Assembly (NCBI RefSeq): GCF_000164635.1 | Contig: NZ_GG770777.1 | Coordinates: 1,652,058 to 1,689,343, forward strand | DNA length: 37,286 nucleotides | From: Pseudoroseomonas cervicalis ATCC 49957 | Lineage (GTDB): Bacteria; Pseudomonadota; Alphaproteobacteria; Acetobacterales; Acetobacteraceae | Direction of reading: 5' to 3' | Part shown: piece by piece, positions 5,554 to 32,803 of the stretch | How the letters are laid out: the number at the start of each line of letters is the position of its first letter | Position numbering within the stretch: position 1 is the first letter of the stretch | The notes under the pieces: model-generated | Told to the model about the DNA's origin: nothing | Database searches by the model: none | The model's input: only the letters and a program-made list of their open reading frames with translations | Translations under genes and position numbers: made by a program

Positions 5554-7610
5554 GGTCCGCTCCCTGGCATGGCCCGCTCGATCCGCGGCGCGCCGACATC
5601 CAGACCTGGGGCGCTGCGCACCTCGGCCGTGGTCCCAGGCGGCGCGCCGCGCAGGGTGATGTCGACGCGCGCAGCCGGCGCGGCCTGGGATTGTGGCGCC
5701 GCAGCCGGCGGTGCCGGGGCCTGCGGTGCCGCCTGCTGCCGCAGCCGGGGCAGCAGGCCCTCGGCCGTGTTCGCGCGGTTCTGCGCCTCACCGAAGCGGC
5801 CCGCCGGCTTCTCGTAGAAGAGCGAGATGGCGGCTGCCGCCTCCGCCGCCGTCCGGGCATTGAGCAGCGCGATGCGTGCCTGTCGGTGCGTCCCGCGCAG
5901 CTCATGCTCGATGAAGCCCAGCTGATCCTCGAAGCTGGATTGGCGGATGTCGCGGCCGGACCAGCGGCGAAAATCCTCCTGCCGCTCCGGGTGCCACTGC
6001 GCGACGCCATAGGCGCGGCCATTGTCGCCCACCGCCTGGTGGTCGAGATTGGCCCCGCTCTCGTGCCGGAGGTTGGCGACAATGCCGGCCGCCTGCTCCG
6101 GGGTGTAGCCGCGCCCCAGAAAATACTCGTAGGCCTGCCGTTGGCGCGGCGTTGGCGCGGAATCGGCCGGCCCGGCCCCGAGGCGCGAGGACGGGACACC
6201 ACCGCCGGGGGTCAGCCGGCGGTTCAGGAACGGATTGAGGCTCGACAGCGGGTTGCTGCGGTCCGTCAGCCCCTCGAACAGCTTCCCGGCGCCGCAGACA
6301 CCCATCGCGATACCGGCAATCGTGGCTCCGCCGCTGAGGCCGAGGAGCCGCAGAGCCCAAAGCGGCAGTCTGATCGAAGCAAGCGATGTGAGGCGTCCGA
6401 CTATGCCGGTCAAAGGCGCCAGAACGTTCAGCGCCAGCGATCCGCCGTCTGCACTTGCGCCCCCAGCCGCAGATGCGGCCGCCGCGCCACCAATACCAAG
6501 CAGCATGAGCGCCCAGATGGGCAGCCTTATCCCAGCCAGAGCCGACACTCGCCCCACAATTCCGATCAGCGGCGCCAAGATGCTCAGCGTCAGCACGCCA
6601 CCCAGGGCAATCGCGGCGTTTTTCCACCCTCCGAACAGATCAACGGCGCTCTGAGTGGCCGCCGCCATGCTGGAAATGCTCTCGGCCAGCTTGGCGGGGC
6701 CGCCGGAGGTCATCCAGCCATCGATGGCGGCCGCGATACGCCGCACCGCGGCCTGACCGCCATCGGCGGAGGTGATCCAGTCGGTCATCCGGCTCACGAT
6801 GCCGGTCAGCGCCGGCGCCAGGGACACGGTCAGCGCCGCGACCAGCCCCTGACTGGCCAGGACCAGCCGCGCCTGGGCCACGCGGGCCGCCTCCGCCCGG
6901 GCGACGCCCTCCTCCGAGATGACGCCATAGCGCCGCGCCTCGCGCGTCAGCTCCCGCAGGCCGGCGCTGCCCCGCTGGAGCAGCGGCAGCATGTCCGGCG
7001 AGATACCGAGCGCGCCCAGAACGCGCCCCTGCAGGCGCGGATCACGGATGCGGGCAATCTGGTCGGCGACCTCCGGCAGCACTTCGGCGGCCGTGCGGGC
7101 TTGGCCACTGGCATCGTGCAGCCGGATGCCCAGCAGACGCAAATACTGCAGCGCCTCCATGTTCCGGCCGCCGACGGCATCGCTCAGCGCCTGGCCCAAC
7201 CCCTGCAGGCTCGAGGTCATGCCCTCAGCCGAGCCGCCGGCCAGCACCGCGGCGCCCTGTAGGGCCTGGAGCTGGCCGGCGGTCATCTGCAGCCGCGCCG
7301 CCTCGGTCGCCAGCCGCGAGCCGAAGGTGGCCCAGCTGCTGGTCATCCGGACAATGCCGGCGATCGTGCCGATGCCGGCCAGAGCGGCCAGCGGCGGCGC
7401 CAGGTCGGCGGCGACGCGACCGACCGAGCGCAGCCCGGCGGCAAGCTTGGTGGCACCCGTCGCGTCACCCAGGCTGCGCACGCTGGCCGAGAGGCGGCCC
7501 AGCGCCAGGGACGGCATCCGGGCCGCCGCGGCGATCTGCCGCAGCGGGCCGGAGGCGCGATCGCGGGCGCTGATGGTGACGCTGAGCGCCTGCTGTGCGC
7601 TACCGCTCAT
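5550..7610 (-). CDS. tail tape measure protein with C-terminal tail-lysozyme domain
   Basis: The protein has 686 residues, starting at ATG 7610. The first 300 are long amphipathic helices, with LSVTISARDRASGPLRQI at the start and RLQMTAGQLQALQGAA near 110. Residues about 335-450 are hydrophobic and include a 52-residue period repeated twice. The second half ends in a lysozyme-like domain at about residues 485-625, including RGYTPEQAAGIVANLRHES with a probable catalytic Glu in HES and AYGVAQWHPER. It matches phage tail lysozyme / transglycosylase-like domains used to open peptidoglycan during DNA entry. The protein sets tail length and is delivered through the tube. A short Ala/Pro-rich tail follows the lysozyme. 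Confidence 0.92.
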   Translation of the reverse strand: MSGSAQQALSVTISARDRASGPLRQIAAAARMPSLALGRLSASVRSLGDATGATKLAAGLRSVGRVAADLAPPLAALAGIGTIAGIVRMTSSWATFGSRLATEAARLQMTAGQLQALQGAAVLAGGSAEGMTSSLQGLGQALSDAVGGRNMEALQYLRLLGIRLHDASGQARTAAEVLPEVADQIARIRDPRLQGRVLGALGISPDMLPLLQRGSAGLRELTREARRYGVISEEGVARAEAARVAQARLVLASQGLVAALTVSLAPALTGIVSRMTDWITSADGGQAAVRRIAAAIDGWMTSGGPAKLAESISSMAAATQSAVDLFGGWKNAAIALGGVLTLSILAPLIGIVGRVSALAGIRLPIWALMLLGIGGAAAASAAGGASADGGSLALNVLAPLTGIVGRLTSLASIRLPLWALRLLGLSGGATIAGIAMGVCGAGKLFEGLTDRSNPLSSLNPFLNRRLTPGGGVPSSRLGAGPADSAPTPRQRQAYEYFLGRGYTPEQAAGIVANLRHESGANLDHQAVGDNGRAYGVAQWHPERQEDFRRWSGRDIRQSSFEDQLGFIEHELRGTHRQARIALLNARTAAEAAAAISLFYEKPAGRFGEAQNRANTAEGLLPRLRQQAAPQAPAPPAAAPQSQAAPAARVDITLRGAPPGTTAEVRSAPGLDVGAPRIERAMPGSGP

Positions 7611-7773: not shown

Positions 7774-8018
7774 CGCGCGAAGAAGTCGGCCGCCTGGGTC
7801 ACGACGCGGATCGGGAGCTTGGACACCGCGGGGATCGGCAGGCCGGAGCAGAGCGAGATGAGCTTCTGCGTCTGCTCCAGATCCGTCTTGGCCTTCATCA
7901 TCTCGATCATGTCGCCGATGGTCGGCTCCCGCAGCGTCAGCTCGGAGTATTCGGCGCCATTGGCGGCGACCGGCTGCGGCAGCGTGATGGTCAGCGTGTC
8001 GTCCATGTGTTCGGTCAT
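7737..8018 (-). CDS. tail assembly chaperone (Mu gp41-like, Phage_TAC family)
   Basis: The protein has 93 residues. It starts with a beta strand rich in T/L (DTLTITLPQPVAANGAEYSE), then LTLREPTIGDMIEMMKAK and the helical LISLCSGLPIPAVSKLP, ending in DFFARFIPPSPP. These features fit the FluMu gp41 chaperone family. The protein binds the tape measure during tail assembly and is not kept in the virion. It sits between tube and tape measure genes, exactly as in Mu. A longer form made by frameshifting is expected in this family, and an open -1 frame is present (7600-7773). Confidence 0.88.
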   Translation of the reverse strand: MTEHMDDTLTITLPQPVAANGAEYSELTLREPTIGDMIEMMKAKTDLEQTQKLISLCSGLPIPAVSKLPIRVVTQAADFFARFIPPSPPTGAK

Positions 8019-8019
8019 G

Positions 8020-8388
8020 TCAGCTCTCCCGCACGTCCTCGCCCTCGAAACGGATGGCGAAGGTGCTCTCGGTGGAATTCACCTCCGGCGCCTCCACCGT
8101 CCACATGCCGACGCCGTAGATCTCCTTGCCGGAGGCCAGGCGCAGCGTGACGGAGACGTTCGTCATCTCCTCGAAATCCTTGACCCGCATGCCGGCGGTG
8201 TCGCGGATCGTCGCCGCGATGAAGCCGGCCTTGGGCGTCTCCGAATAGCCGCTGATGCCGCTCATCGAGGCCAGCGTCTGGCGGGTGACGGAGGACACGC
8301 CCCAGGTGGGCTCGGACACGACCTCGAAGGCCATGCCGTCCACCCAGAGCCACGCGACGCCGCCGAGGCGGCGCGAATTGTCGGCCAT
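8020..8388 (-). CDS. tail tube protein (Mu gpM-like)
   Basis: The protein has 122 residues. It begins MADNSRRLGGVAWLWVDGMA and contains GISGYSETPKAGFIAATIRD, the pattern of FluMu-type tail tube proteins. The last part is a beta strand pair (IYGVGMWTVEAPEVNSTE) and a conserved Phe/Arg end. Hexameric rings of this protein form the inner tube that passes through the sheath. It lies six bases downstream of the sheath gene and one base before the chaperone gene. Confidence 0.92.
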   Translation of the reverse strand: MADNSRRLGGVAWLWVDGMAFEVVSEPTWGVSSVTRQTLASMSGISGYSETPKAGFIAATIRDTAGMRVKDFEEMTNVSVTLRLASGKEIYGVGMWTVEAPEVNSTESTFAIRFEGEDVRES

Positions 8389-21254: not shown

Positions 21255-23069
21255 TCATTCGCCCCCCTCGCTGCTGTTCAGAGCCAGCAACTCCAGGGGC
21301 AGCCACGTCCCTCGGCTCTTACCGCCATCGGTGAAGTGCATCGTCGGGCCGACTTCGACACCTTGGAGGTCCCGAAGGGCGCGATGCCAGACGCCATCCT
21401 TCCACCTAGTGTCGGCGAAGAGGCGTTCCGTGGCGGGGCCGCTGCCAATCCATAACCCAGGCGGGGGCAAGGGGCCATAGGTCAGTTTCAGCCGGTTCCG
21501 GCCGAGCTTGGAGGCCCATTCCTTCCGGAAATCCGCGTCGCCGCGCTTCGACCAGGCGGCCGAGAGCGCGCCGGCGATGGTGTCGGTGGTCCGGCCATCG
21601 CGGGACAGCTCGATTCGGGAGCCCAGGAAGTGCTGCAGCACCAGCTGCGGCGTGTCCTCCTCCGCCGTCTCCTCCTCGGTGAGGTAGAACTCGCGGAACT
21701 CCTCCAGGATGTGCCCGGCATCCTGCTGGGTCAGCGGCTCGTCATGGGCGAGCACCTGCCAGCCGGCCAGCAGGGCGGCGAGCTGGTCAGCGGCGCGGCC
21801 GGTCGACTGGCGCTCGACGGCGGCGGCGCGCAGCAGCGCACGGTTCTGCAGGTAGATGCCGAAACGGTTCTGCAGGCGGCGCAGCAGGGCCGGATACAGC
21901 TCCTTCGCGCGGCTGATGGCCTCCTCCACCCGAGCCTCATTCTGGGCGGCGGGGCGGCGCATCTGCAGCAGGGTGATGCGGGAGGCATCCGCCGGGGCCA
22001 GGACCACCGGGGTGATGGCCGCCAGCAGGAAGCACCCGTTGACGCGGAAGGTGCGCGCCTCGCCCTCGGCATTGCCGCGCGCGGTGACGGCGCCCTGCCG
22101 CCCGCTGGCGCCGCGCATGAGGTCGAGGATGCGGGCGATGTGGCCGGTGTTGGCCTCGGCCTCATCCACTGGGATCAGCACCGCGCGGTTGTCATAGACC
22201 TGGCGTAGCGCCGCCTCGCTGGTGTCGGTGGTGGGCAGGCTGCCGCCACAGGCCGCCGCGATCCAGCGCATCAGCGCCGACTTGCCAGAGCCGAAGGGGC
22301 CACGCAGCAGCATGTGCGGGCGCCAGGGCAAGGCCGCCGCCAGGATGCCATTGGCGACCATGCCCAGCAGCAGGGCCGGCCCCGCATCCAGCTGGGTATG
22401 GGAGAAGGCCCAGAGGTTGAGGTCCTTCCAGAGCTGGGCGACCTGCTCCTTCGTGGCCTCTTTGGGGGTGGGGCGTGGCCGCGGCGCAGCAGCCAGGTAG
22501 ACGGCGCTGCCATGCTGGTGGCCGGGCGGGTAGACCTCGCCATCGGCCAGGATGCGGTCGCCGCAATGGATGACGAGGCTGTCGGGGCTCGGGCCGAGCC
22601 AGACGCCATCCAGGCGCATCTCGCGACGTTCCACCGGCCCGGCCGCCGTGCACGCGGCCATCAGGGCATCGCCCGCGATGCGCGCGGAGAAGTCGCCGCT
22701 GCGCTGCATGACGGGCAGGCCTTTTTCGTCCCGGACGATCTTGCCGAGCGAATCGCGGATCGGCGACATGTGCGGCCAGCGGCGGGCCAGCCATGCCTTG
22801 CCGGAGGCGCCGGCATAGAGGGAGGAGATGCAGGCCGCCGCGTGCATATCCCGCGCGGCCAGAATCTGCTGCAGCCCGGCGGCGTCCAGGAAGACATAGG
22901 CCGTCGCGCCGCGGCGGGACATCACGCCCAGCGGCACCACCGCGCCGAAGCCGGTGGGCTCCTCCTCCTTCTCCTGCGGCTCGGGCCCACCCTCGGTCGC
23001 GGGCGGCTTGCGGCGGCGCTTCTCCTCCCGCACCGCCTGGTCCAGCTTGACCACATTCGGGCCGCTCAT
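21255..23069 (-). CDS. P-loop replication ATPase / helicase-like protein (DUF927-like)
   Basis: The protein has 604 residues. Residues 1-40 are charged and disordered. An N-terminal domain follows, then the ATPase core with Walker A GPFGSGKSAL near 257 and Walker B AVLIPVDEAEAN near 296. A sensor-like NGCFLLAAITPVVLAP is near 350, and an Arg-finger candidate (SRITLLQMRRP) follows. A helical C-terminal lid comes next. The layout matches the single-motor helicases used by phages and plasmids of the DUF927 / primase-helicase group. The gene overlaps the upstream gene by four bases and ends at the hexamer array, which fits replication initiation. A primase domain is not evident. Confidence 0.8.
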   Translation of the reverse strand: MSGPNVVKLDQAVREEKRRRKPPATEGGPEPQEKEEEPTGFGAVVPLGVMSRRGATAYVFLDAAGLQQILAARDMHAAACISSLYAGASGKAWLARRWPHMSPIRDSLGKIVRDEKGLPVMQRSGDFSARIAGDALMAACTAAGPVERREMRLDGVWLGPSPDSLVIHCGDRILADGEVYPPGHQHGSAVYLAAAPRPRPTPKEATKEQVAQLWKDLNLWAFSHTQLDAGPALLLGMVANGILAAALPWRPHMLLRGPFGSGKSALMRWIAAACGGSLPTTDTSEAALRQVYDNRAVLIPVDEAEANTGHIARILDLMRGASGRQGAVTARGNAEGEARTFRVNGCFLLAAITPVVLAPADASRITLLQMRRPAAQNEARVEEAISRAKELYPALLRRLQNRFGIYLQNRALLRAAAVERQSTGRAADQLAALLAGWQVLAHDEPLTQQDAGHILEEFREFYLTEEETAEEDTPQLVLQHFLGSRIELSRDGRTTDTIAGALSAAWSKRGDADFRKEWASKLGRNRLKLTYGPLPPPGLWIGSGPATERLFADTRWKDGVWHRALRDLQGVEVGPTMHFTDGGKSRGTWLPLELLALNSSEGGE

Positions 23070-23779: not shown

Positions 23780-23950
23780 TCATTGGCCGCGCCACCACAG
23801 CGCCGCCCGGCGCGCAGCCTTGGCCCGCCACAGCGTCCAGTCGGCAAGGTCGTACCAGCGGCGCTCACGCCAGATGGCGAACAGCTCCATCGGCCGGCGG
23901 GCAGGCCGCAACAGCGGCCGCGCCAGCGCCCGGAGAATGGATCGAATCAT
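23780..23950 (-). CDS. small Arg/Trp-rich ORF in the replication operon
   Basis: A 56-residue open frame from ATG 23950 to TGA 23780. It begins MIRSILRALARPLLRPARRP and contains WYDLADWTLWRAKAARRAAL and a final LWWRGQ. It has seven Trp in 56 residues and a high positive charge. It overlaps the end of the upstream HTH gene by 86 bases. A shorter form from an internal ATG at 23890 would overlap by only 26. The spacing to the next gene (21 bases) and the biased composition suggest it may be real, but the overlap keeps confidence low. No family is recognised. Confidence 0.4.
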   Translation of the reverse strand: MIRSILRALARPLLRPARRPMELFAIWRERRWYDLADWTLWRAKAARRAALWWRGQ

Positions 23951-24227
23951 GCGAGGTCCTCAGGGCGTCGAGCCGCGCCTCGAGCAGGGCTCGGCGGGCG
24001 TCGAGACGGCGGGTTTCGGCGGTGATCCAGGCGGCGTAGCCGTCGCGGATGCGGCAGCTCTCGCTCTGGCGGGGATCGGTGGCCTCGCCATGCCAGTAGC
24101 CACGGACGCGGCGCGGCGAGATGCCGCACAGGCGCGCCACAGCGGCATAGGCACGGTCGAGGCCGGAGGGGCGGTGCGCCTGCACCATCTCGCGGATCAT
24201 GTCCGGGGCGGCGATGGCGTCACTCAT
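23865..24227 (-). CDS. small HTH protein, first gene of the leftward operon
   Basis: The protein has 120 residues from ATG 24227 (MSDAIAAPDMIREMVQAHRP). The middle is a clear helix-turn-helix (DRAYAAVARLCGISPRRVRG), followed by YWHGEATDPRQSESC and a coiled helix (AETRRLDARRALLEARLDAL). The layout resembles small phage regulators that recruit host factors. An ATG at 24320 would add 31 residues that run through a pair of operator-like inverted repeats, so the shorter start is preferred. The inverted pair at 24249-24282 lies 22 to 55 bases upstream of this start and could be its own control site. Confidence 0.7.
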   Translation of the reverse strand: MSDAIAAPDMIREMVQAHRPSGLDRAYAAVARLCGISPRRVRGYWHGEATDPRQSESCRIRDGYAAWITAETRRLDARRALLEARLDALRTSHDSIHSPGAGAAAVAACPPADGAVRHLA

Positions 24228-24248
24228 GGGCGCCGCGCCCGGCAGCGC

Positions 24249-24282
24249 GGGCGAAACGCCCGAAATTTTGGGTGAAATACCC
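24249..24282. promoter_or_regulatory. pair of 13-bp inverted repeats (operator candidate)
   Basis: GGGCGAAACGCCC (24249-24261) and GGGTGAAATACCC (24270-24282) share the form GGGNGAAANNCCC with matching arms. Their centres are 21 bases apart, two turns of the helix, so a protein could sit on both on one face. They lie just upstream of the HTH gene start (24227) and within the divergent region to the WYL-like gene. Confidence 0.6.
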
Positions 24283-24356
24283 GGCACAGCGGGTGCCCTC
24301 CATGACAGGATTCTGGCCATGGAGAGTGTTGCTGTTGCTCGTGAGTACCGACTGAG

Positions 24357-24539
24357 CGGCGCCGGGCTGGAACCCCGGCGCCGTTCGCATTTCGGGGAGG
24401 GGGCGGCCGATAGTGTGGGCCGCCCCCTGATCCGCCGCCGGGGGAGGCAGGCTGGCGGCGGAAGCTACGTGGGCGCGGACCGTGCCGTTGCCGGAACGGC
24501 CCGCGCCCTCCACCATGGCCGCACCCCTGCGGGCCATGG
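24357..24539 (+). ncRNA. structured leader: five consecutive strong hairpins before the WYL-like gene
   Basis: Hairpin I 24357-24383: 10-bp perfect stem CGGCGCCGGG, 7-base loop. II 24399-24427: 10-bp perfect stem GGGGGCGGCC, 9-base loop. III 24431-24462: 9-bp perfect stem TCCGCCGCC, 14-base loop. IV 24471-24508: 8-bp stem GGGCGCGG, a 5-base bulge, then a 6-bp stem GCCGTT with a 5-base loop. V 24513-24539: 8-bp stem CCATGGCC with an inner 3-bp stem. They cover nearly the whole 183 bases. The 3' arm of V overlaps the GGAGGA ribosome binding site (24538-24543) of the gene starting at 24556. Transcription and function are not shown. The frame across it reads as non-coding. Confidence 0.55.
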
Positions 24540-24555
24540 AGGAACCGGACAGCAC

Positions 24556-25065
24556 ATGATCGAGAACATTCTGATCGGCGGCGTTCTGCTGCTGCTGGTC
24601 CTGGCGTTGATCGGGAAGCTCTTCGGAGAAAAGCTGACCCGACTGGAGGCCAAGCTGCGCGCCGATCCGGCCGCGCCAGCGCCGAGGCAACCGGCGCCCC
24701 AGGCGCCAAAACCGCCGCTTGAATTCACCCGGCCGCCGCCGGAGGGCGACCGGATACGCTTCGGCTACACGGACCGGGAGGGCCGGGAATCCATCCGGAT
24801 GGTTACCCCGACGCAGCTCAATTTCGGCTACACGCCGGCCGGCGAGCGGGTGATCGAGAACTTCTCGGCCTACTGCCACGACAGCCGCGCCAGCCGCACT
24901 TTCCGCGTCGACCGGATGAAGCAGGCTTACGTCTTCGACACGGGCGAAGTGTTGGGAGACGCGGCGGCGATCGAGCGCTGGCTGCTGGAGGAGCTTCCGA
25001 CCCCCGCGGGCCGGCGCCGCCGCAAGCCTCGGGCCAAGCCCAAGCCGCGAAATGTCGCGGAATGA
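24556..25065 (+). CDS. membrane-anchored WYL-like domain protein
   Basis: The protein has 169 residues. Residues 5-23 are a single membrane span (NILIGGVLLLLVLALIG), followed by a short helix and a Pro/Ala-rich linker to about 60. The rest is one domain: IRFGYTDREGRESIRMVTP, GYTPAGERVIENFSAYCHDS and RASRTFRVDRMKQAYVFDTG. The YC..SR..RTFR.DR pattern is that of WYL domains, which usually bind nucleotides or nucleic acid in regulators. The C-terminus is very basic (RRRRKPRAKPKP). Here no HTH is attached, and a membrane anchor replaces it. The gene stands alone on the plus strand in the switch region, behind a structured leader. Confidence 0.7.
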   Translation: MIENILIGGVLLLLVLALIGKLFGEKLTRLEAKLRADPAAPAPRQPAPQAPKPPLEFTRPPPEGDRIRFGYTDREGRESIRMVTPTQLNFGYTPAGERVIENFSAYCHDSRASRTFRVDRMKQAYVFDTGEVLGDAAAIERWLLEELPTPAGRRRRKPRAKPKPRNVAE

Positions 25066-25079
25066 GGGACGAGTCGCGG

Positions 25080-25316
25080 TCATGCGGCCCGCCCATCGGC
25101 GAAGGGCTCGGCGAACACGTCAGGGCGCAGTTGATGGCAGGGGATGCCGGTCAGGCGCGAAATGGCGGCGACATGCTCGGCTGGAATGCGCCGCCATTTG
25201 TGCGGAGCCGTCCTGCTCAGACCAAGGTGGCCTGCCAAAGCCGCATTGCTGCCGGCCGCTTTGACCGCAGCCTCAACGCCAGCCCGAAGACGCGATTTGA
25301 GATCGATGTCGGCCAT
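25080..25316 (-). CDS. YdaS / Cro-like small DNA-binding protein
   Basis: The protein has 78 residues. It reads LKSRLRAGVEAAVKAAGSNA, then ALAGHLGLSRTAPHKWRRIP and VAAISRLTGIPCHQLRPDVF, the standard pattern of YdaS-type helix-turn-helix proteins, which act as Cro-like regulators of lysogeny switches. A 17-bp operator (25326-25342) lies nine bases before its ATG, where a bound repressor would block transcription. It converges with the WYL-like gene (14-base gap). No Shine-Dalgarno is obvious, so it may be leaderless or weakly translated. Confidence 0.88.
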   Translation of the reverse strand: MADIDLKSRLRAGVEAAVKAAGSNAALAGHLGLSRTAPHKWRRIPAEHVAAISRLTGIPCHQLRPDVFAEPFADGRAA

Positions 25317-25325
25317 AAAGGATTT

Positions 25326-25342
25326 GTAGAGAAATTCTCTAC
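25326..25342. promoter_or_regulatory. operator copy 1 (17-bp dyad) between YdaS-like and XRE genes
   Basis: GTAGAGAAATTCTCTAC is a near-perfect dyad of two 7-base arms (GTAGAGA/TCTCTAC) around AAT. The same form is found at 25909-25925 and 25940-25956. It sits in the divergent promoter region of the switch pair. Confidence 0.8.
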
Positions 25343-25412
25343 GGCCGACAAGTCGGAAGCTTGCGATCCTCTCAACAGCCAGGAGGCAAGAAATTCAACA
25401 CACTGCCTGCCC

Positions 25413-25733
25413 ATGACAGACGCCCACCACAAAAGAGACGTGGGAGATCGGCTCCGGCAGGCGCGCGAAGCCCTTGGCTTTGGCCTCAGAGAGTTTGCTC
25501 GCCTACACGACCTCGATCCGACCAAGCTCAGCCACTGGGAAAAGGGCAAGCACTACCCCGACCCCCAGTTCATCCGCGAGCTCTGGCGGCGGCATCGAGT
25601 GAACGCCGATTGGGTCTATCTCGGTGAGATCGCTAGTCTTCCTCACAGCCTGGTGGAGAGTTTGCGGGCGGCCGAACGGGGATCACAGGGGGCTTCTTCG
25701 GCGGCTTCTGCCCCTTTGCCAGAAAAGACCTAG
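25413..25733 (+). CDS. XRE-family repressor (CI-like)
   Basis: The protein has 106 residues. A helix-turn-helix at about 8-62: DVGDRLRQAREALGFGLREF, ARLHDLDPTKLSHWEKGKHY and FIRELWRRHRVNADWVYLGE. The SHWEKGKHYPDP turn is typical of XRE proteins. The C-terminal 40 residues are Ser/Ala-rich, without a LexA-type peptidase domain, so this is not a self-cleaving CI. The start is ATG 25413. An AGGAGG at 25381-25386 is 26 bases upstream, unusually far, so the true start may differ or use no SD. It is divergent to the YdaS-like gene across operator 1, and is the likely lysogeny repressor. Confidence 0.82.
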   Translation: MTDAHHKRDVGDRLRQAREALGFGLREFARLHDLDPTKLSHWEKGKHYPDPQFIRELWRRHRVNADWVYLGEIASLPHSLVESLRAAERGSQGASSAASAPLPEKT

Positions 25734-25908
25734 TCAGCACTCCACCGATCATCGCGGCACCTCCACGCGAACCATTTCAGAACATTTAAGGAACATCAAG
25801 AGCCAAAAAAACCTACACTCTAGGAATATAGGCACAAGCAGGAAGGGCGCACCGGAAAGCCCGGCCGCCATCAATCAGGCTGCTCCTTGGAGATCGCGCA
25901 ACCAGCGC

Positions 25909-25925
25909 GTTGAGATTTTCTCAAC
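25909..25925. promoter_or_regulatory. operator copy 2 (17-bp dyad)
   Basis: GTTGAGATTTTCTCAAC has the same arms-and-centre architecture as operator 1 (7-base arms, 3-base centre), with A/T swapped at the third arm base and a TTT centre. It lies 31 bases from operator 3 and upstream of the rightward operon, so the same repressor may cover both switch promoters. Confidence 0.7.
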
Positions 25926-25939
25926 ATTTCCACTTGCTC

Positions 25940-25956
25940 GTAGAGAAATCCTCTAC
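25940..25956. promoter_or_regulatory. operator copy 3 (17-bp dyad)
   Basis: GTAGAGAAATCCTCTAC differs from operator 1 in a single base. It is upstream of the gene at 25998, with TTGCTC before and GAATAT after at 17-base spacing. It may therefore lie between the -35 and -10 of the rightward promoter, although those boxes are weak. Confidence 0.78.
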
Positions 25957-25997
25957 GAATATCCTCCCCGCGCCATCCCGGCGCTGGAGGCATCACC

Positions 25998-26531
25998 ATG
26001 GGAGCGCGCATCACCCGCGCGGCCGCGACGCCGAGCCCGAATGATCTGGGATCGGCCTGCATCGGCACCCTCAATGGCGACCTGCTGATCGCGCAGCAGG
26101 GCCAGATCCTGGCCACCATCAAGGCCAGCGGCGACATCACCGGCAACAAGGTGGCGGCCCTGGCCGCCCTGCGCGGCGACCGGCTGCACACGGCGCAGCG
26201 CGTGGCCATCATGGCCGCGCTGCACCATGCCGTGCTGCTGGACGAGCGGCTTGCGGCGGAGAGCCGCCCGGCCCCGCCGCCGATGCAGGAGCTGCACAGC
26301 CTGCACCGCCGCGGGCTGCGGCTGGACCTGCATCGCAGCCTGGAAGCGCCGGGCAGCTTCGCCGTGTTCCGCGACCTTCCCCCGCCCGCCTGCCGCGCGT
26401 CCGACCTTGCCTCCGCGCGCCGCTGGGCGTTGCAGGCGGCCCAGGCTTTCCCCGGCGCGACCTTTGCCGCCTGCCAGCTGGTGGAGGCCACCCGCCTGGA
26501 GGCGATGCCGGCCCAGGAGATCGCGGCATGA
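25998..26531 (+). CDS. unknown protein, first gene of the rightward operon
   Basis: The protein has 177 residues and a clear ribosome site (GGAGG seven bases before ATG). An early beta section (LNGDLLIAQQGQILATIKAS) is followed by a helical segment (KVAALAALRGDRLHTAQRVA) and a mixed C-terminal part (GLRLDLHRSLEAPGSFAVFR; SARRWALQAAQAFPGATFAA). No family is recognised. It is controlled by operators 2 and 3 by position and overlaps the next gene by four bases (ATGA). Early phage genes at this place often interfere with host functions, but nothing in the sequence says which. Confidence 0.75.
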   Translation: MGARITRAAATPSPNDLGSACIGTLNGDLLIAQQGQILATIKASGDITGNKVAALAALRGDRLHTAQRVAIMAALHHAVLLDERLAAESRPAPPPMQELHSLHRRGLRLDLHRSLEAPGSFAVFRDLPPPACRASDLASARRWALQAAQAFPGATFAACQLVEATRLEAMPAQEIAA

Positions 26532-26941
26532 CCCAGGCGACACTCTCCACCGCCGCCTCTCTGCCCGCCGTCGCCATCATCGACCCCAGCCGGGGCTGGC
26601 TGGCGACCATCCACCCCTGCGGCCACATCGACGGCAGCGCCGAAGCCGCGCTCGACCACCTCTCCCGCCAGACGCCCGGCCCCGCCGCCCAGCCCGGCCA
26701 CACGCTGATGCTGGCCGCGCTGCGGCTGGCGCTGCGCGGCCGGACCCTCGACGTGCCGCCGCGCTACGACCAGCAGGGTTTCGTGGTGCTGCGCAGCCTG
26801 CCGCTCGACACCGAGTTGCACCGCTCCGAGAACGCCGCCCGCGCCAGCGCCGAGGACCTGGCCGACAGCCACCCGGGCAAGGAGATCCGCGTCGCCCAGC
26901 TGCTCGCCACCTACCGCCAGGGTGCGTGCCATGTTGGGTGA
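26528..26941 (+). CDS. unknown early protein
   Basis: The protein has 137 residues. A beta-rich N-terminus (ASLPAVAIIDPSRGWLATIH) precedes a helical segment around GHTLMLAALRLALRGRTLDV. The end is charged (ENAARASAEDLADSHPGKEI, then VAQLLATYRQGACHVG). It overlaps the previous gene by four bases and the next by 11, so it belongs to the same coupled series. No conserved motif is apparent. Its codon use is the same as its neighbours. Confidence 0.7.
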   Translation: MTQATLSTAASLPAVAIIDPSRGWLATIHPCGHIDGSAEAALDHLSRQTPGPAAQPGHTLMLAALRLALRGRTLDVPPRYDQQGFVVLRSLPLDTELHRSENAARASAEDLADSHPGKEIRVAQLLATYRQGACHVG

Positions 26942-27296
26942 CGCCCTGCTGCGCCTGACCACGGCGGCCGAGGCCGCCCTCGACCGCGACCCGGCCGCCC
27001 TGCCGCCGGGCTGGATCGACGAGGTCAACCGCTACGCCAACGCCCTGCTGCGCAAGCCGCGCCCGGACCAGGCCGAGCTGCGCCGCCTGGGCGGCCGCAT
27101 CGGCGGCGTGCTGCTGTCGCTGATCTCAGCCCCGCGCGGCAGCGAGGCCCTGGCCCGCCATCGCCTCGCCGAGCTGCGCCGCCACGCCGAGGCCGTCCGC
27201 GCCGCCGAGGACCCGGAGGCGTTGCGTATCCCCGAGCCCGCCAACCGCAACATCCTGGTGCAGCGCCTGACCTGGCCGCTGAAGATCGGCCGGTGA
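26931..27296 (+). CDS. unknown helical early protein
   Basis: The protein has 121 residues from ATG 26931 (MLGDALLRLTTAAEAALDRD). A GTG at 26922 would add three residues. The chain is almost wholly helical: GWIDEVNRYANALLRKPRPD, LRRLGGRIGGVLLSLISAPR and ARHRLAELRRHAEAVRAAED. It overlaps the preceding gene by 11 bases and the next possible start (GTG 27293) by four. No family recognised. Confidence 0.7.
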   Translation: MLGDALLRLTTAAEAALDRDPAALPPGWIDEVNRYANALLRKPRPDQAELRRLGGRIGGVLLSLISAPRGSEALARHRLAELRRHAEAVRAAEDPEALRIPEPANRNILVQRLTWPLKIGR

Positions 27297-27394
27297 GCAC
27301 CCGCCCCCACCCCCGCCCGTCCTGCGAGACCGCCGCCAATCTGCTGGCCGGCCGGCGCGGCGCGGGCGCCACCCACAACCCTGTCGGAGCCCCC

Positions 27395-27601
27395 ATGCGC
27401 CCCTTCGACATCCGCGTGCGCGAGGTCATGGACCATCAGTGCCGCATGCTCCCGGCCGAGCGCGCCGCCGAGTTCGTCGCGCTGGAGCAGGACCGCGACC
27501 GCCTGCGCAGCATCGTGGCCGAGATGCTGCCGGCCGACACCATGCCCCCGGCGGGCGGCGCCGCGCCGGTCAGCGCCGCGAACGCGGGAGAGGCCGAATG
27601 A
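27395..27601 (+). CDS. small helical protein, unknown
   Basis: The protein has 68 residues from ATG 27395 (MRPFDIRVREVMDHQCRMLP), with GGAG five to six bases before. A GTG at 27293 gives a 102-residue form whose first 34 residues are Pro/Arg/Gly-rich and look non-natural, although it would overlap the preceding gene by GTGA. The helix continues to ALEQDRDRLRSIVAEML and the end is Ala/Gly-rich. It overlaps the MarR-like gene by four bases. Confidence 0.6.
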   Translation: MRPFDIRVREVMDHQCRMLPAERAAEFVALEQDRDRLRSIVAEMLPADTMPPAGGAAPVSAANAGEAE

Positions 27602-27918
27602 CCCACATCACCCTCGACACGCTGCACCGCGTCGTCGTGAGCGCCGTCCGCTCCGACGCGCCGGATCTCTCCCAGCGCCAGCTGGCCGTCCTGCTCGACG
27701 CCGCGCGCCAGCCCGAGCCGCGGACCGTGCGCGGCCTGGCGGCGGCGCTGAACGTCTCGAAGCCGGCCATCACCCGCGCGCTGGACCGGCTGGAGGAGCT
27801 GTCCCTGGCGCGCCGCATCCCCGACCCGAAGGACCGCCGTAGTGTGCTGGTCAGCGTCACCCACGCCGGGCGCGAGCATCTCGCGCGCCTGGTCAGCCCC
27901 GGCGAGGTCCTCCAATGA
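27598..27918 (+). CDS. MarR-like winged-helix protein
   Basis: The protein has 106 residues. The fold is plain: a helix with DLSQRQLAVLLDAARQPEPR, the recognition region RGLAAALNVSKPAITRALDR and LEELSLARRIPDPKDRRSVL with the DRRS wing, then VTHAGREHL. This is the MarR DNA-binding core without the long dimerisation helices of full MarR proteins (usually about 140 residues). It overlaps both neighbours by four bases. It probably acts on phage or host promoters, target unknown. Confidence 0.85.
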   Translation: MTHITLDTLHRVVVSAVRSDAPDLSQRQLAVLLDAARQPEPRTVRGLAAALNVSKPAITRALDRLEELSLARRIPDPKDRRSVLVSVTHAGREHLARLVSPGEVLQ

Positions 27919-28572
27919 ACAGCGAGGCCAACCGCCTCCTGCTGGAGGCCATTTCGAAGATCGCCAGGGCCGTCGAGCTGATGCACGCGGACGCCTTCCC
28001 GCCGCCGGCAGCGGCGCGGCCCAGGCGCGACCACGCCTCCACGGTGCGCGCGCTGGAGCGCTGGAAGCACAGCCCCCTCCCCGTCCTGGCCGTTGAGCCC
28101 CCCCCCCATGCCTGCCGCGGAGCCGGCACCGGTGGCTGAGCCCGCCCAGCCGGCTGCGGAAGCCGCCGCGCCCGAAACCCGCCGCGGACGCGCATGGACG
28201 CCGCAGCAGCGCCAGGCCGCCGCCGAGCGCATGCGCGCGACCATGGCCAAGCGGCGTGGCGCCGCCGCCCCTGCGCCGATCCAGCAGCAGGAAGCGGCTC
28301 CCGCGCCGGAAGCGGTCCAGCCGCCCACAGCTGCGCCCCGTCAGCCGGAGTCGCCTGCTCGTCAACCGGAGACGCCGATCCGTCAACCGGAATCCGTCGC
28401 GCCGCCGCTGCCGCCGGTTGTTGATGATCCTCGTGAGGATGCTCGCAATCTGCTAGCCGCCGGCATGTCGCCGCGCGAGGTGGCCGACGAAACGGGCCTG
28501 AAGCTCAGCGAGGTTTCCGCCCTCGCCTTTGCTCTGCGCGAACAGCGCGCCGCCAGCGCAGGGAGGGCCTGA
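27915..28572 (+). pseudogene. HTH protein interrupted by a run of ten C (two out-of-frame parts)
   Basis: Part A runs from ATG 27915 (MNSEANRLLLEAISKIARAV) to a stop at 28139. After the C10 run (28098-28107) its frame gives an unlikely HACRGAGTGG end. Part B is open in another frame from a TTG at 28093 or ATG at 28108 to TGA 28572, but either start has no good ribosome site. With nine C the two join into one protein of 218 residues. It would have a helical N-terminus, TRRGRAWTPQQRQAAAERMR, three 7-residue repeats RQPE(S/T) (28339-28401) and an HTH-like end (GMSPREVADETGLKLSEVSA). So it is a slippage site, a broken gene or a read error. Confidence 0.7.
28098..28107. repeat. C10 homopolymer tract inside a coding frame
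   Basis: Ten C in a row directly before an ATG. Removing one C joins two parts of the same HTH protein. Runs of this length are prone to slippage in replication, transcription and sequencing. Confidence 0.85.
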
Positions 28573-30248
28573 TGGGCGACGTCATCCCCACGCCGCGCCA
28601 GGTCGACATCGAGGCGGACATGGCACCGCCGCGCGCGCTGCTGGCGCCGATCGGCGAGGTCGCCGCCGCCGGCGACAACCTCCGCCGCCACAGGGCGCCG
28701 GATCGTGACCGGCAGCTGCGCGACAGCATCGCCGCCATGGGCATCCTGCAGCCGCTTCTGGTGCGCCCGCGCGCCGAGGGCGGCTGGGTCGTGATCGAGG
28801 GCCATGGCCGTCTGCAGGCGGCGCAGGAGCTTGGCCTCGCCCAGGTGCCCATCCTGGTGCGGCCGTCCGGCGAGGCCGAGCAGCTGGCGGTGCAGGCGGC
28901 CACCAACATCGTCCGCGCGCCGCTGGAGCCGATCGACCAGTGGCGCGCCATCGTGTCGCTGCAGGAGCGCGGCTACAGCCTGGTGGAGGCCGCAGGTGCC
29001 ATCGGCATCGCGGAGCGCAAGGCACGCCAGCTCGACCGCCTCGGCCGCCTACATCCCGCGCTGTTGGCGGAGATCGAGAAGAGCGGCATGCCGGCCGACC
29101 ATGTGCTGATCCGCGTTGCCTCGGCGCCGCCGGAGGCGCAGGCCGCAGCGCTCAAGGCACCTGGCGCGTGGCAAGGCAGCGGGAAGGCGCGCCAGCTGGC
29201 TTGGCACAATCTGAGCGCCGCGCTGGCCTCCGCCCGCATCCCGCGCAGCCGAGCCATCTTCGATCCGGCCGAGGCCGGCATCGCCGTGGAGGAGGACCTC
29301 TTCGCCGAGCCCGGGAGCAAGGAGCAGTTCTTCTTCACGGACGTGCGCGGCTTCATGGCCGCCCAGGAACAGGCCCTCGCCAAGCTCGCCGCCGCGAAGC
29401 CGAAGCCCCGCATCGAGATTGTCGCGTGGAAGGAGCAGGGCCCCGCCATCCCGCGCGGCTGGATCCGGCTGTATGGCGACAAGAAGCCGAAAGGCTGCGT
29501 CTCTTACCGCGCCATCGCACCGTCCGGCTGGAACATCGGCGAGGTGGTGGAGGTCCTGGCCCTGCCGCCGGCACCGCCCAAGAAGAAGGACGGTCAGCCT
29601 GGCGCAGTGGCCTCGACCGAGGCGGAGGAGGCCGAGACGCCGCCGGTGCCGCAGCGTGAGCGGCTGACGAAGCGCGGCCGCGACATCCTGGCGCAGATGC
29701 AGACCGATGGCCTGCACGCTGCCCTGCGCCAGGACGCGGAGCAGCGCGACGAAGCCGAATGGCTGGAGCTGCTGCTGGTGGCCCTCTGCGCCGACAATGT
29801 GCAGATCCGCCCGGGCGGAACGGATCGCTATCAGCCGCTGGTGCGGTTCGGCGACATCGCAGCTCAGCTGCTGGACGAACAGGCGCAGCAGCGCGAGCTC
29901 GAACACGGCGTGACGCGGCGCCTGGCGGCCGAGGCGCTGTGCCGCATCCTCTCGGTGACGGGACCGACGCGCGCCGGCAGCGGCCGCGCCGCGCACTGGG
30001 TCGGCCGCTGGGTGGATGCGCGCGGCAGCATGCCGTTCCTGGACACGCCGGAGCTACTTGCGACGCTGTCGGCCGACACGCTGCGCCACATCGCCGCCGA
30101 CCTCGACATGCCGACCAGCGGCACGGCGACGGCGCTGCGCGAGCGCCTGGCAGGCAAGGCCCGCGCCATGTGGCTCGAGGAAGCGGAGTTCACCGCGCCC
30201 GGCCCGCGGGCGCCGGAACCTGAGCCCGACGAAGAGGAAGAGGAATGA
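28572..30248 (+). CDS. ParB-like protein with SAP-like C-terminus
   Basis: The protein has 558 residues. The N-terminal ParB domain, about residues 25-100: NLRRHRAPDRDRQLRDSIAA, MGILQPLLVRPRAEGGWVVI and EGHGRLQAAQELGLAQVPIL (the GHGRL box takes the place of GERR/GHRR). NIVRAPLEPIDQWRAIVSLQ and the HTH segment follow. A middle domain and a Lys/Pro linker lead to a C-terminal LLATLSADTLRHIAADLDMP and SGTATALRERLAGKA, a SAP-like DNA-binding motif near 505-545. It ends in a run of Glu. Such long ParB-like phage proteins may act in DNA modification, partition or transcription. No ParA partner is nearby, so classical partition is unlikely. Confidence 0.85.
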   Translation: MGDVIPTPRQVDIEADMAPPRALLAPIGEVAAAGDNLRRHRAPDRDRQLRDSIAAMGILQPLLVRPRAEGGWVVIEGHGRLQAAQELGLAQVPILVRPSGEAEQLAVQAATNIVRAPLEPIDQWRAIVSLQERGYSLVEAAGAIGIAERKARQLDRLGRLHPALLAEIEKSGMPADHVLIRVASAPPEAQAAALKAPGAWQGSGKARQLAWHNLSAALASARIPRSRAIFDPAEAGIAVEEDLFAEPGSKEQFFFTDVRGFMAAQEQALAKLAAAKPKPRIEIVAWKEQGPAIPRGWIRLYGDKKPKGCVSYRAIAPSGWNIGEVVEVLALPPAPPKKKDGQPGAVASTEAEEAETPPVPQRERLTKRGRDILAQMQTDGLHAALRQDAEQRDEAEWLELLLVALCADNVQIRPGGTDRYQPLVRFGDIAAQLLDEQAQQRELEHGVTRRLAAEALCRILSVTGPTRAGSGRAAHWVGRWVDARGSMPFLDTPELLATLSADTLRHIAADLDMPTSGTATALRERLAGKARAMWLEEAEFTAPGPRAPEPEPDEEEEE

Positions 30249-31265: not shown

Positions 31266-31602
31266 GCGGTTTCTCAGCCTCAGCGAGGCCGCTGCCTATG
31301 TCGGCGTCGGGCAGGATCTGTTTGCCGCGGAGGTCGAGGCCGGCATGTGGCCACGTCCCCTGCGGCGCGGCCGAACGGGGCGCCGCCTCACCTGGGACCG
31401 CAAGCTGCTGGACGCCAGGGCCGACGCGCTCGGCCAGGAGCATGGAGGCGCGCCGCAGCCCCCGCCAGCACCCGATGCCGCAGACCTCGGTCACCAACAG
31501 CCCGCTGGCCCTGCCAGCCGGGAAGCCGAATTGCTCAGAAGGATTGCCAGCCGCCATGACGGCCAAGCCGCCGCCGGCCGAGGACGTGCCCGCCGGACTT
31601 AA
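31258..31602 (+). CDS. AlpA-like excisionase / HTH_17 protein
   Basis: The protein has 114 residues from ATG 31258. The first 55 are an excisionase-type winged helix: MDRRFLSLSEAAAYVGVGQD, LFAAEVEAGMWPRPLRRGRT and RRLTWDRKLLDARAD. The tail is Pro/Ala-rich, longer than in most Xis proteins. It overlaps the integrase by 47 bases. By analogy it binds beside the attachment site and directs the integrase towards excision, or it acts as a small regulator. Confidence 0.8.
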   Translation: MDRRFLSLSEAAAYVGVGQDLFAAEVEAGMWPRPLRRGRTGRRLTWDRKLLDARADALGQEHGGAPQPPPAPDAADLGHQQPAGPASREAELLRRIASRHDGQAAAGRGRARRT

Positions 31603-32722
31603 GCCCATCCGCAAGCGTCTCGCGGATGGAAGCTTTCGCACCTACTACTTCGACCGCCGCACGGGCACCGCCCTTGGGACGGATCGCGCCGTGGCGATTG
31701 AGCGCCTCCGCGACATGCGCGAGGAAGCGCTTGCCCCTCCCGCCGTGGAGCCGGGCAGCTTTGAGGCCCTGGTTTCCGCCTTTCGGGCCTCGCCGGAGTA
31801 TCTCGACAAGCGGGCCACCACCCGGCAGCAGTATGCCTACGAGATGACGGAGCTGCTGCGCGACCTGCATGGCAGCCTCCTGTCCGACATCACGCCGGCG
31901 GTGGTCTATGCCATCCGTGACCGGACGGCCGCCGCCGGCCATCGCCACAAGGCCAACAGCCTCATCCGCATGCTCCGCATCCTGTTCGGATTCGCCAAGC
32001 GCCGCGGGCTGGCGGCGACAAAGCCCACCGATGACGTGCCCCTGATCGCGGTGGAGCCCCGGACGGCCGTCTGGACCCCGCAGCAGATCGAGGCATTCCT
32101 GACCGGTGCCCGCCCCAGCCTGCAGGCTGGCATGGCGCTCCTGCTCTACACGGTGCAGCGCCTCTCGGACGTGATGGCGCTGACGAGGGAGAACCTCCAC
32201 GAAAACCCGGCGGATGGGCGGCTGTGGATCGGGCTACGGCAGCGGAAGACCTCCGCCCTGGTCTGGACGCCCTGCCACCAGCGCCTGGCGGCAATCTTGA
32301 GGGCCTTGCCGCCCGAGCAGCACCACCTGGTCCCCTCGCCCACCGGCCTGCCCTGGCCCAAGCGCAATTTCGCCCGGTCGTGGGACGCGCACCTGCAGCG
32401 CCGCAACAAGCAGCTGGCGGAGCAGGGCTTGCCCCTGATTCCGGCGCTTCAGCGCCGCGACCTGCGCCGCACGGGGATGGTGCAGATGGCCCTGGCCGGC
32501 GCCACGCCAAACCAGATCGCGGCCGTATCAGGGCACAGCATCGACCAGACCATGAAGATCCTGGACGTCTACATCCCACGTCGGGGCGACGTAGCAGCGG
32601 GCGCCATCACGGCCTGGGAATCGAGTCCCGGCGGAGAGACCTTCTCGGCCTTCGAAAAAGGGGGCGGAAACCAGTTTCCGGTTACCGGAAACCGGAAAAC
32701 GAGCAGTTCGGTAAAGACTTGA
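31556..32722 (+). CDS. int: tyrosine-recombinase integrase
   Basis: The protein has 388 residues. ATG 31556 was chosen because upstream codons overlap the excisionase and lose the family start. An N-terminal arm-binding part leads to a core-binding domain around residues 65-165 (EYLDKRATTRQQYAYEMTEL). The catalytic domain has Arg202 in TVQRLSDVMAL, Lys231 in RQRKTSALV, RRDLRRTGM with Arg304, His327 in SGHSID and nucleophile Tyr339 in LDVYIPRR. The usual His of the H..R box is Arg301. The gene ends seven bases from the tRNA-Arg 3' end, the standard layout for a tRNA-targeting integrase. Confidence 0.95.
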   Translation: MTAKPPPAEDVPAGLKPIRKRLADGSFRTYYFDRRTGTALGTDRAVAIERLRDMREEALAPPAVEPGSFEALVSAFRASPEYLDKRATTRQQYAYEMTELLRDLHGSLLSDITPAVVYAIRDRTAAAGHRHKANSLIRMLRILFGFAKRRGLAATKPTDDVPLIAVEPRTAVWTPQQIEAFLTGARPSLQAGMALLLYTVQRLSDVMALTRENLHENPADGRLWIGLRQRKTSALVWTPCHQRLAAILRALPPEQHHLVPSPTGLPWPKRNFARSWDAHLQRRNKQLAEQGLPLIPALQRRDLRRTGMVQMALAGATPNQIAAVSGHSIDQTMKILDVYIPRRGDVAAGAITAWESSPGGETFSAFEKGGGNQFPVTGNRKTSSSVKT

Positions 32723-32729
32723 AAAGGCA

Positions 32730-32780
32730 TGTCCCCGGCGGGATTCGAACCCACGGCCCCCAGATTAGGAATCTGGTGCT
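32730..32780. other. prophage-host junction (attachment site in tRNA 3' half)
   Basis: All sequence to the left is phage, the integrase stops at 32722, and the tRNA begins at 32730 on its 3' side. The recombination core must therefore lie in the tRNA 3' half, probably between the anticodon arm and the discriminator base. The partner copy is outside the window, so the exact core length cannot be given. Confidence 0.65.
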
Positions 32781-32803
32781 CTATCCGGCTGAGCTACGGA
32801 GAC
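32730..32803 (-). tRNA. tRNA-Arg (anticodon CCT)
   Basis: A full cloverleaf can be folded on the minus strand. The acceptor GTCTCCG pairs with CGGGGAC (one G-U pair), the D arm is GCTC/GAGC, the anticodon arm CCAGA-TTCCTAA-TCTGG gives CCT, and the T arm is GTGGG-TTCGAAT-CCCGC. The discriminator is A and CCA is not encoded. It is 74 bases and serves as the phage integration site. Confidence 0.95.

Follow-up and report, generated by a model that had tools for sequence, protein, structure and literature searches.

The put RNA of phage HK022 suppresses transcription termination without a phage protein, via the β′ zinc-binding domain. In lambda and P22, the outward early transcripts carry, between cro and the genes for replication, nut sites that consist of a hairpin with a GNRA-like loop (boxB) and boxA, while lambda oop and other phage antisense RNAs are complementary to the beginning of a gene that lies near cro on the other strand. 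In the HK022 source drawn on here, putL and putR are described as ~70 nt in length, with two stem-loops, and present on both early transcripts (PMC9378689). Among start-associated phage repeats, those nearest to the element described below are the SAS/ESAS of Cluster K mycobacteriophages, in which an inverted repeat and a start-associated sequence stand directly before the start codons of various genes, the SAS being a 13-bp GGGATAGGAGCCC ahead of the start codon with 11-19 SAS per genome (PMC3203893; see also PMC12699233).

We have analyzed a stretch of 37,286 nt from Pseudoroseomonas cervicalis ATCC 49957 (hereafter the window), in which a prophage carries a phage element of two hairpins. 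Like HK022 put, this element is short (76 nt), comprises two adjacent covarying stem-loops, would lie on the early-transcript strand of a temperate phage and occurs on both sides of the immunity region in 4/26 loci, with one copy in the window; unlike put, it overlaps signals of a gene on the opposite strand (a promoter-like motif and a ribosome site), is usually one-sided and may be tandem; its likeness to put is one of architecture. It shares with lambda and P22 nut a hairpin with a GNRA-like loop on a presumed early outward transcript, situated between cro and replication genes, but its stem is much longer and a second hairpin is present; no conserved or boxA-like motif was noticed beside it by eye. 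As with SAS/ESAS, the element directly precedes start codons of varied phage genes, but the sequences are different (the SAS consensus was absent from 28 aligned copies by inspection), structure is conserved more than sequence, and the site is the immunity region. Unlike lambda oop, it would in our reading form part of a long early transcript and has a conserved two-hairpin fold. A literature search of titles and abstract openings found no description of the element, and the terms WYL, hairpin and RNA structure are absent from the main text of the paper on Acetobacter phage phiAP1 (PMC8566455), a phage with two copies.

Results

A preliminary description of this DNA had proposed that five strong hairpins in a row form a structured leader of the downstream gene, which encodes a WYL domain. 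In the window, where GC content is 71%, all five stems were found where that description had put them (H1-H5, 24354-24543), together with a sixth, weaker hairpin (H0) absent from its list (Table 1). They are far beyond chance, as had been claimed: RNAfold gave -144.4 kcal/mol for 24340-24575 vs. -114.8 +/- 5.2 in dinucleotide shuffles (z -5.67), with 0/200 shuffles as stable, and z for 24296-24555 was -6.39 on the plus and -7.18 on the minus strand. When GC-corrected energy was scanned over 742 sliding stretches of the window (200 nt each, step 50), the stretch from 24351 was lowest on both strands; it also held 4 perfect hairpins (stem ≥8 bp, loop 3-15 nt), with a maximum of 2 elsewhere. Of the two mismatches in H4, the first is A.C on the plus and G.U on the minus strand, and the second, in the window, is G.A on the plus and U.C on the minus strand. 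We discarded an intrinsic terminator, as inspection by eye revealed no T-run after the stems on either strand.

Table 1. Features of the hairpin region and its surroundings (window positions).
Feature	Position	Strand	Basis or remark
Primase-like outward gene	21255-23069	minus	phrog_35358, E 1.5e-41
First outward gene past the hairpins	23865-24227	minus	start uncertain, ORF open to 24320; no family match
H0, sixth, weaker hairpin	24299-24325	n/a	fold and relatives
H1, strong hairpin	24354-24386		not part of the widely conserved element
H2, strong hairpin	24398-24428		not part of the widely conserved element
H3, strong hairpin	24431-24462		not part of the widely conserved element
H4, long hairpin	24471-24508	minus	8+4+3 bp, two single mismatches; minus loop GCAA
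H5, second hairpin	24509-24543	minus	plus-strand 3' arm is the GGAGGA ribosome site
Conserved two-hairpin RNA element	24471-24546	minus, 5'-H5'-H4'-3'	models R1-R3, 28-copy alignment, strand tests
Promoter-like motif of inward gene (predicted)	TTGCCG 24488-24493, 17-nt spacer, CACCAT 24511-24516	plus	conservation
GGAGGA ribosome site of inward gene	24538-24543	plus	sequence
Inward gene, N-terminal hydrophobic segment and WYL domain	24556-25065	plus	Pfam WYL, E 1.7e-7
Cro-like (YdaS) regulator	25080-25316	minus	PF15943, E 3e-14
HTH repressor	25413-25733	plus	PF12844, E 3.2e-10

Comparison with relatives did not bear out the five-hairpin row as a unit, in that H4 and H5 alone are widely conserved. 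A close relative (L017, genome G202) keeps the hairpins as well as the gene at 79% identity, and H1-H3 can be aligned there, with H3 unformed in that relative's own fold; two further loci (L018 of G203 and L065 of G107) keep H4 and H5 ahead of unrelated-looking genes, the latter with H0 and an H1-like stem matched by eye. H0 is compensated in a relative, with CTCCATG/CATGGAG changed to CTGCATG/CATGCAG. On the gene strand, z was -2.82 for L017 (1/200 shuffles as stable), -1.22 for L018 (20/200) and -4.66 for L065 (0/200). H0-H3 are extra stems of the window's phage and its nearest relatives.

The covariation that the preliminary description had proposed to look for in homologues' leaders proved strong. 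In the alignment of the window with these three relatives, 9 pairs were double-changed and none was changed on one side only. Applied to 17 genomes of the genus, a covariance model of the four rows (R1) yielded six strong copies, including two new ones, and these six made up a second model (R2); in their alignment, double changes occur at 10 pairs (18 cells in all) and single-sided changes at none, and the pair that contains a ribosome-site base (40-72 in alignment A8) is C-G in three copies and U-A in the other three. In a larger alignment of 28 copies, drawn from 32 listed ones by leaving out L152 (nearly the same as L151) and second copies in L150, L160 and L162, 20/26 pairs were double-changed in at least one copy, and the 102 compensatory double-change cells compare with 36 in shuffles, of which 0/500 reached 102. 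Conservation is poor in the outer pairs of H4, two of which are unpaired in 20/28 copies. What this comparison shows is a predicted RNA of ~76 nt (copies of 75, 77 and 78 nt occur), with two adjacent stem-loops on the minus strand that are maintained by compensatory changes. A conserved peptide was also considered, as a frame across H4-H5 translates to PLPERPAPSTMAAPLRAME in the window, with similar readings in L017, L018 and L065; it was rejected because the 75-, 77- and 78-nt copies shift the frame and the double changes track pairing. Peptide searching matched 143/200 genomes at E up to 1, which we took as chance save for the window's own match; one of these (L065) coincided with a real copy.

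With R2 at E <= 0.01, matches were found in 30/397 genomes of the same family, in 17 genera, the weakest being doubtful, and in 27 rows at E <= 0.0001 among loci taken from these genomes, with 1-3 copies per prophage locus. Two R2 rows in set A10 (L140 of G217, L145 of G151) were judged noise, a judgement that applies to A10 rows other than L147-L149, and an R1 match (L113) proved to be coding sequence. At the class level, 7/289 genomes matched at E <= 0.01, of which, besides the window, G449 alone was taken as clear; in a different family of the class (f51), 4/82 genomes matched at E <= 0.001, with G714 and G449 the best. G449 contains three tandem copies within 1.6 kb (L228, 5957-7522), two folding to a GAAA-capped stem, best 14 bp, and the third a weak hairpin.

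Viral sequences also carry the element. A pattern scan gave 46 stretches, many possibly chance, and in 45 loci other than the window's own there were 26 R2 and 28 R3 matches (R3 being the minus-strand model, see below) at E <= 0.01. An earlier scan gave 4 stretches, and two further scans yielded no additional relative, as judged from L094. One of the 4, in IMG/VR contig UViG_2513237333_000010 (L063), is like the window over 601 bases by eye, with the same score; from sequence, the prophage of the window seems to have been catalogued already as a virus in IMG/VR. Phage phiAP1 has one copy at 8015-8086 (32 bits with the covariance model) and a second at 7247-7330, identified by fold and eye ahead of its WYL gene.

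In the window itself, model searching found no second copy: away from the site, the next-best score was 12.7 bits in 23800-29000 with filters off and 22.2 bits (7514-7563) over the whole window. The absence of a named RNA family, suggested earlier, was confirmed for Rfam 15, in which no family reached its gathering score at the element and a tRNA was the only match in the window; the best sub-threshold match at the site had 20.4 bits vs. a cut-off of 80. DNA similarity searching matched at least 190/397 genomes, the matches listed beyond the window, G202 and G203 being short, and gave no phage match; one match (L026) looks like coding sequence, and two in Streptomyces plasmids were judged chance. 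When loci were sought with the WYL protein, the single one obtained was remote and was left unused.

The preliminary description had placed the structure on the strand of the WYL gene. Our strand tests favor the minus strand, antisense to that gene, as the one that probably folds, and they do so from sequence comparison in four respects: 1) odd cells in well-paired columns are on the plus strand mostly A.C, i.e. G.U on the minus, and among 21 non-redundant rows and 23 core pairs there were 45 G.U wobbles on the minus vs. 8 on the plus strand (p 2e-7; 36 vs. 8, p 2.5e-5, without two always-odd columns), these p-values being indicative only since cells share descent; 2) R3, a minus-strand mirror of R2 built from the same six sequences with slightly different gap placement, scored above R2 in 21/25 held-out copies (p 9e-4), L152 left aside, the plus model being better in L164, L169 and one copy each of L161 and L162, and in 20/24 viral copies (p 4e-4), part of which are the same phages as in the held-out set, with L206 and L219 left aside as their scores equal that of L202; 3) the minus RNA folded lower in 27/28 aligned copies, by a mean of 8 kcal/mol; 4) the H4 loop on the minus strand is GCAA in 22/28 and ACAA in 6/28 copies, and GAAA in two tandem copies of G449, with deviant loops in L221, L231 and the second copy of L160. 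G.U counts, folding energy and model scores are mutually dependent evidence, and the G.U asymmetry may also come from strand-biased mutation; since plus-strand models were used to detect the 28 copies, detection bias opposes the minus-strand conclusion. The H5 loop is in many copies GU-rich on the minus strand (GGTTGGTTGTGG, GTGTTGCAAC) and CA-rich on the plus; it is a possible protein or RNA contact.

Reading leftward on the minus strand, the window has the YdaS/Cro-like gene, the hairpins, small genes and the primase-like gene. This order suggests a lambda-like immunity region with an early operon that would start at the Cro-like gene and run leftward through the hairpins, antisense to WYL. 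Cro/CI seeds (phmmer), taken from 11 loci of the same set, matched 24/26 loci, 13 of the 24 having given no seed (L152 being close to L151); matches were weak in L153 and L162, and L161 and L164 had none. In 24/24 of these loci, the element has its gene strand directed toward cro/cI and its structured strand outward, with an additional Cro-like match on the outer side in L158. In most loci, including the window, the element was found on one side only; it is on both in L157, L160, L163 and L168, and L167 has two copies, both on the cI side. On the cro side it lies beyond the inward gene, at a distance of about 0.2 to 2 kb from cro. In 9/25 genomes, a Pfam YdaS match is present on the opposite strand no more than 2.3 kb downstream.

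The other strand of the element also looks constrained. As previously noted, the last hairpin extends over the inward gene's ribosome site, with GGAGGA falling within the H5 3' arm; GGAG or GAGG occupies this position in 29/32 listed copies (L173 by eye), the exceptions being L166 and the second copies of L150 and L162. A start codon follows 1-9 nt beyond the element in 25/25 copies examined, vs. an estimated one-third by chance, and the frame behind it is at least 30 aa in 21/25 copies and 15-21 aa in the other four (L127-L130). A promoter-like motif, TT.-N3-N17/18-.A..AT, is present in 52/58 distinct copies (49 with TTG, a form found in 103/20000 random control windows) and missing in L172, L175, L186, L191, L221 and L231; these copies are homologous, with weak matches included, so that the figure reflects conservation and not independent origin. 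By this conservation, we surmise that TTG-N3-N17-CACCAT is the promoter of the inward gene. Were this the case, transcription of the inward gene would begin in the loop of H5 and its mRNA would be devoid of the hairpins; that would account for the occurrence of RNA-type wobbles on the minus strand only.

The inward genes look different by eye, several being WYL-like and others coding for small proteins, either soluble or in the membrane; as a gene other than WYL often follows the element, the designation as a leader of the WYL gene was too narrow. A gene-element-gene unit is repeated in phiAP1 and other loci. Covariation, the lack of which the preliminary description would have held against itself, is present; WYL genes without the stems, which it would have held against itself too, do exist, since among 11 other genomes with a WYL-protein match, the element occurs in three (G025, G135, G142) and no match is listed in eight. 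In L159 and L173, an inward-strand frame with HHPG(I/L)GWIGA near its end reaches up to or near H4 (by eye), and the element there is seemingly flanked by two co-oriented genes. On the whole, the earlier interpretation is partly supported.

Discussion

Structure, strand and placement of the element are well supported, and from these we infer its role. The reading that we favor, with a probability of roughly 40%, is that the copy in the window belongs to a conserved phage element whose strands each have a role, the outward RNA being a candidate antiterminator that would act in cis on elongation as put does. According to this reading, cro and the genes for replication share the minus strand with the two-stem-loop RNA; as polymerase copies the outward early operon (PR-like, and in some phages also PL-like), the RNA would fold and act in cis to lessen pausing or termination, as HK022 put RNA does, with the result that genes beyond the element would be made, while the other strand would serve as promoter and ribosome site of an inward accessory gene, here the WYL membrane gene. 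We prefer this mechanism because put, with its similar length, paired stem-loops and presence on both early transcripts, is the closest known RNA. Several findings count against it: 1) on the cro side, the element stands behind the inward gene and would be of no help to polymerase across the preceding antisense stretch; 2) the inward gene is its firmest partner, and a repeated gene-element-gene unit is needless for a single antiterminator; 3) the window has a single copy and most loci are one-sided; 4) the plus-strand folds of L017 and L018 are weak and the outer H4 pairs often unpaired; 5) 4/25 held-out copies favor the plus-strand model, and nothing like boxA caught the eye. A broader proposal, that temperate phages of Alphaproteobacteria, remote from HK022, possess in these elements a new family of RNA antiterminators, put-like and independent of protein, with the promoter and ribosome site of exchangeable accessory genes on the opposite strand of the same 76 bp, is doubtful at present, and we advance it tentatively.

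The main rival, which we regard as unlikely, albeit the first to be considered, is antisense control, in which hairpin loops of the outward early transcript would pair with the leader of the inward mRNA and shut its ribosome site on induction, a mode of action known from CopA/CopT or further phage antisense RNAs. The strand that bears the structure is the exact antisense of the gene strand, on which the conserved ribosome site and nearby start codon lie and whose fold is weaker, and the units repeat with their inward genes, all in agreement with such control. On the other hand, a transcript antisense to a whole gene has no need of conserved hairpins, the loop sequences vary, and an inward mRNA from the promoter-like motif would lack H4.

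We consider it quite unlikely that the element is a leader or processing signal of the outward gene, whereby cutting by RNase III or 5'-end protection would separate the antisense part from the replication mRNA and set its translation. The stems are long and near-perfect, and in several copies H4 is followed within a few tens of nt by what is likely to be the ribosome site and start codon of an outward gene (by eye), as this would predict; against this, the inward frame that reaches H4 in L159 and L173 (by eye) makes it seem that the outward gene does not start there, and RNase III does not need a conserved loop. More improbable again is the translational leader of the inward WYL gene, with H5 hiding GGAGGA until a signal opens it: the ribosome site does fall within the H5 3' arm in 6/6 aligned copies and one pair covaries, but on the gene strand there are A.C mismatches and G.U is rare, models score lower and folding is weaker, and mRNA from the promoter-like motif would be without hairpins. 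The least probable of all is a DNA element (a single-strand initiation site, cruciform or recombination site at a cassette boundary), for even if G.T is tolerated in single-stranded DNA as well and the same element precedes different-looking genes as a cassette boundary might, the GNRA-type loop swaps (GCAA, GAAA) and strict outward orientation suit RNA better.

Whatever the mechanism, this looks like one sequence under selection for RNA structure on one strand and for promoter and ribosome site on the other. This structured RNA matches no Rfam family, occurs in prophages of many genera of one family as well as in an isolated phage, and shows covariation sufficient to define it. The element marks where early transcripts would exit the immunity region and offers a way to locate the accessory genes of these prophages. 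If put-like, it would extend RNA-only antitermination well beyond the HK022 group; if the new-family proposal is true, lytic read-through and inward gene expression would be built into one sequence.

Near-identical palindromes, GTAGAGAAATTCTCTAC (25326-25342) and GTAGAGAAATCCTCTAC (25940-25956), flank the repressor gene and look like the right and left operators of a lambda-like switch. Elsewhere in the window, a plus-strand gene of 474 aa ends beside a minus-strand tRNA gene (32730-32803), the two spanning 31298-32803, and they may represent integrase and attachment site. On the rightward side of the prophage there is a ParB-like gene at 28572-30248.
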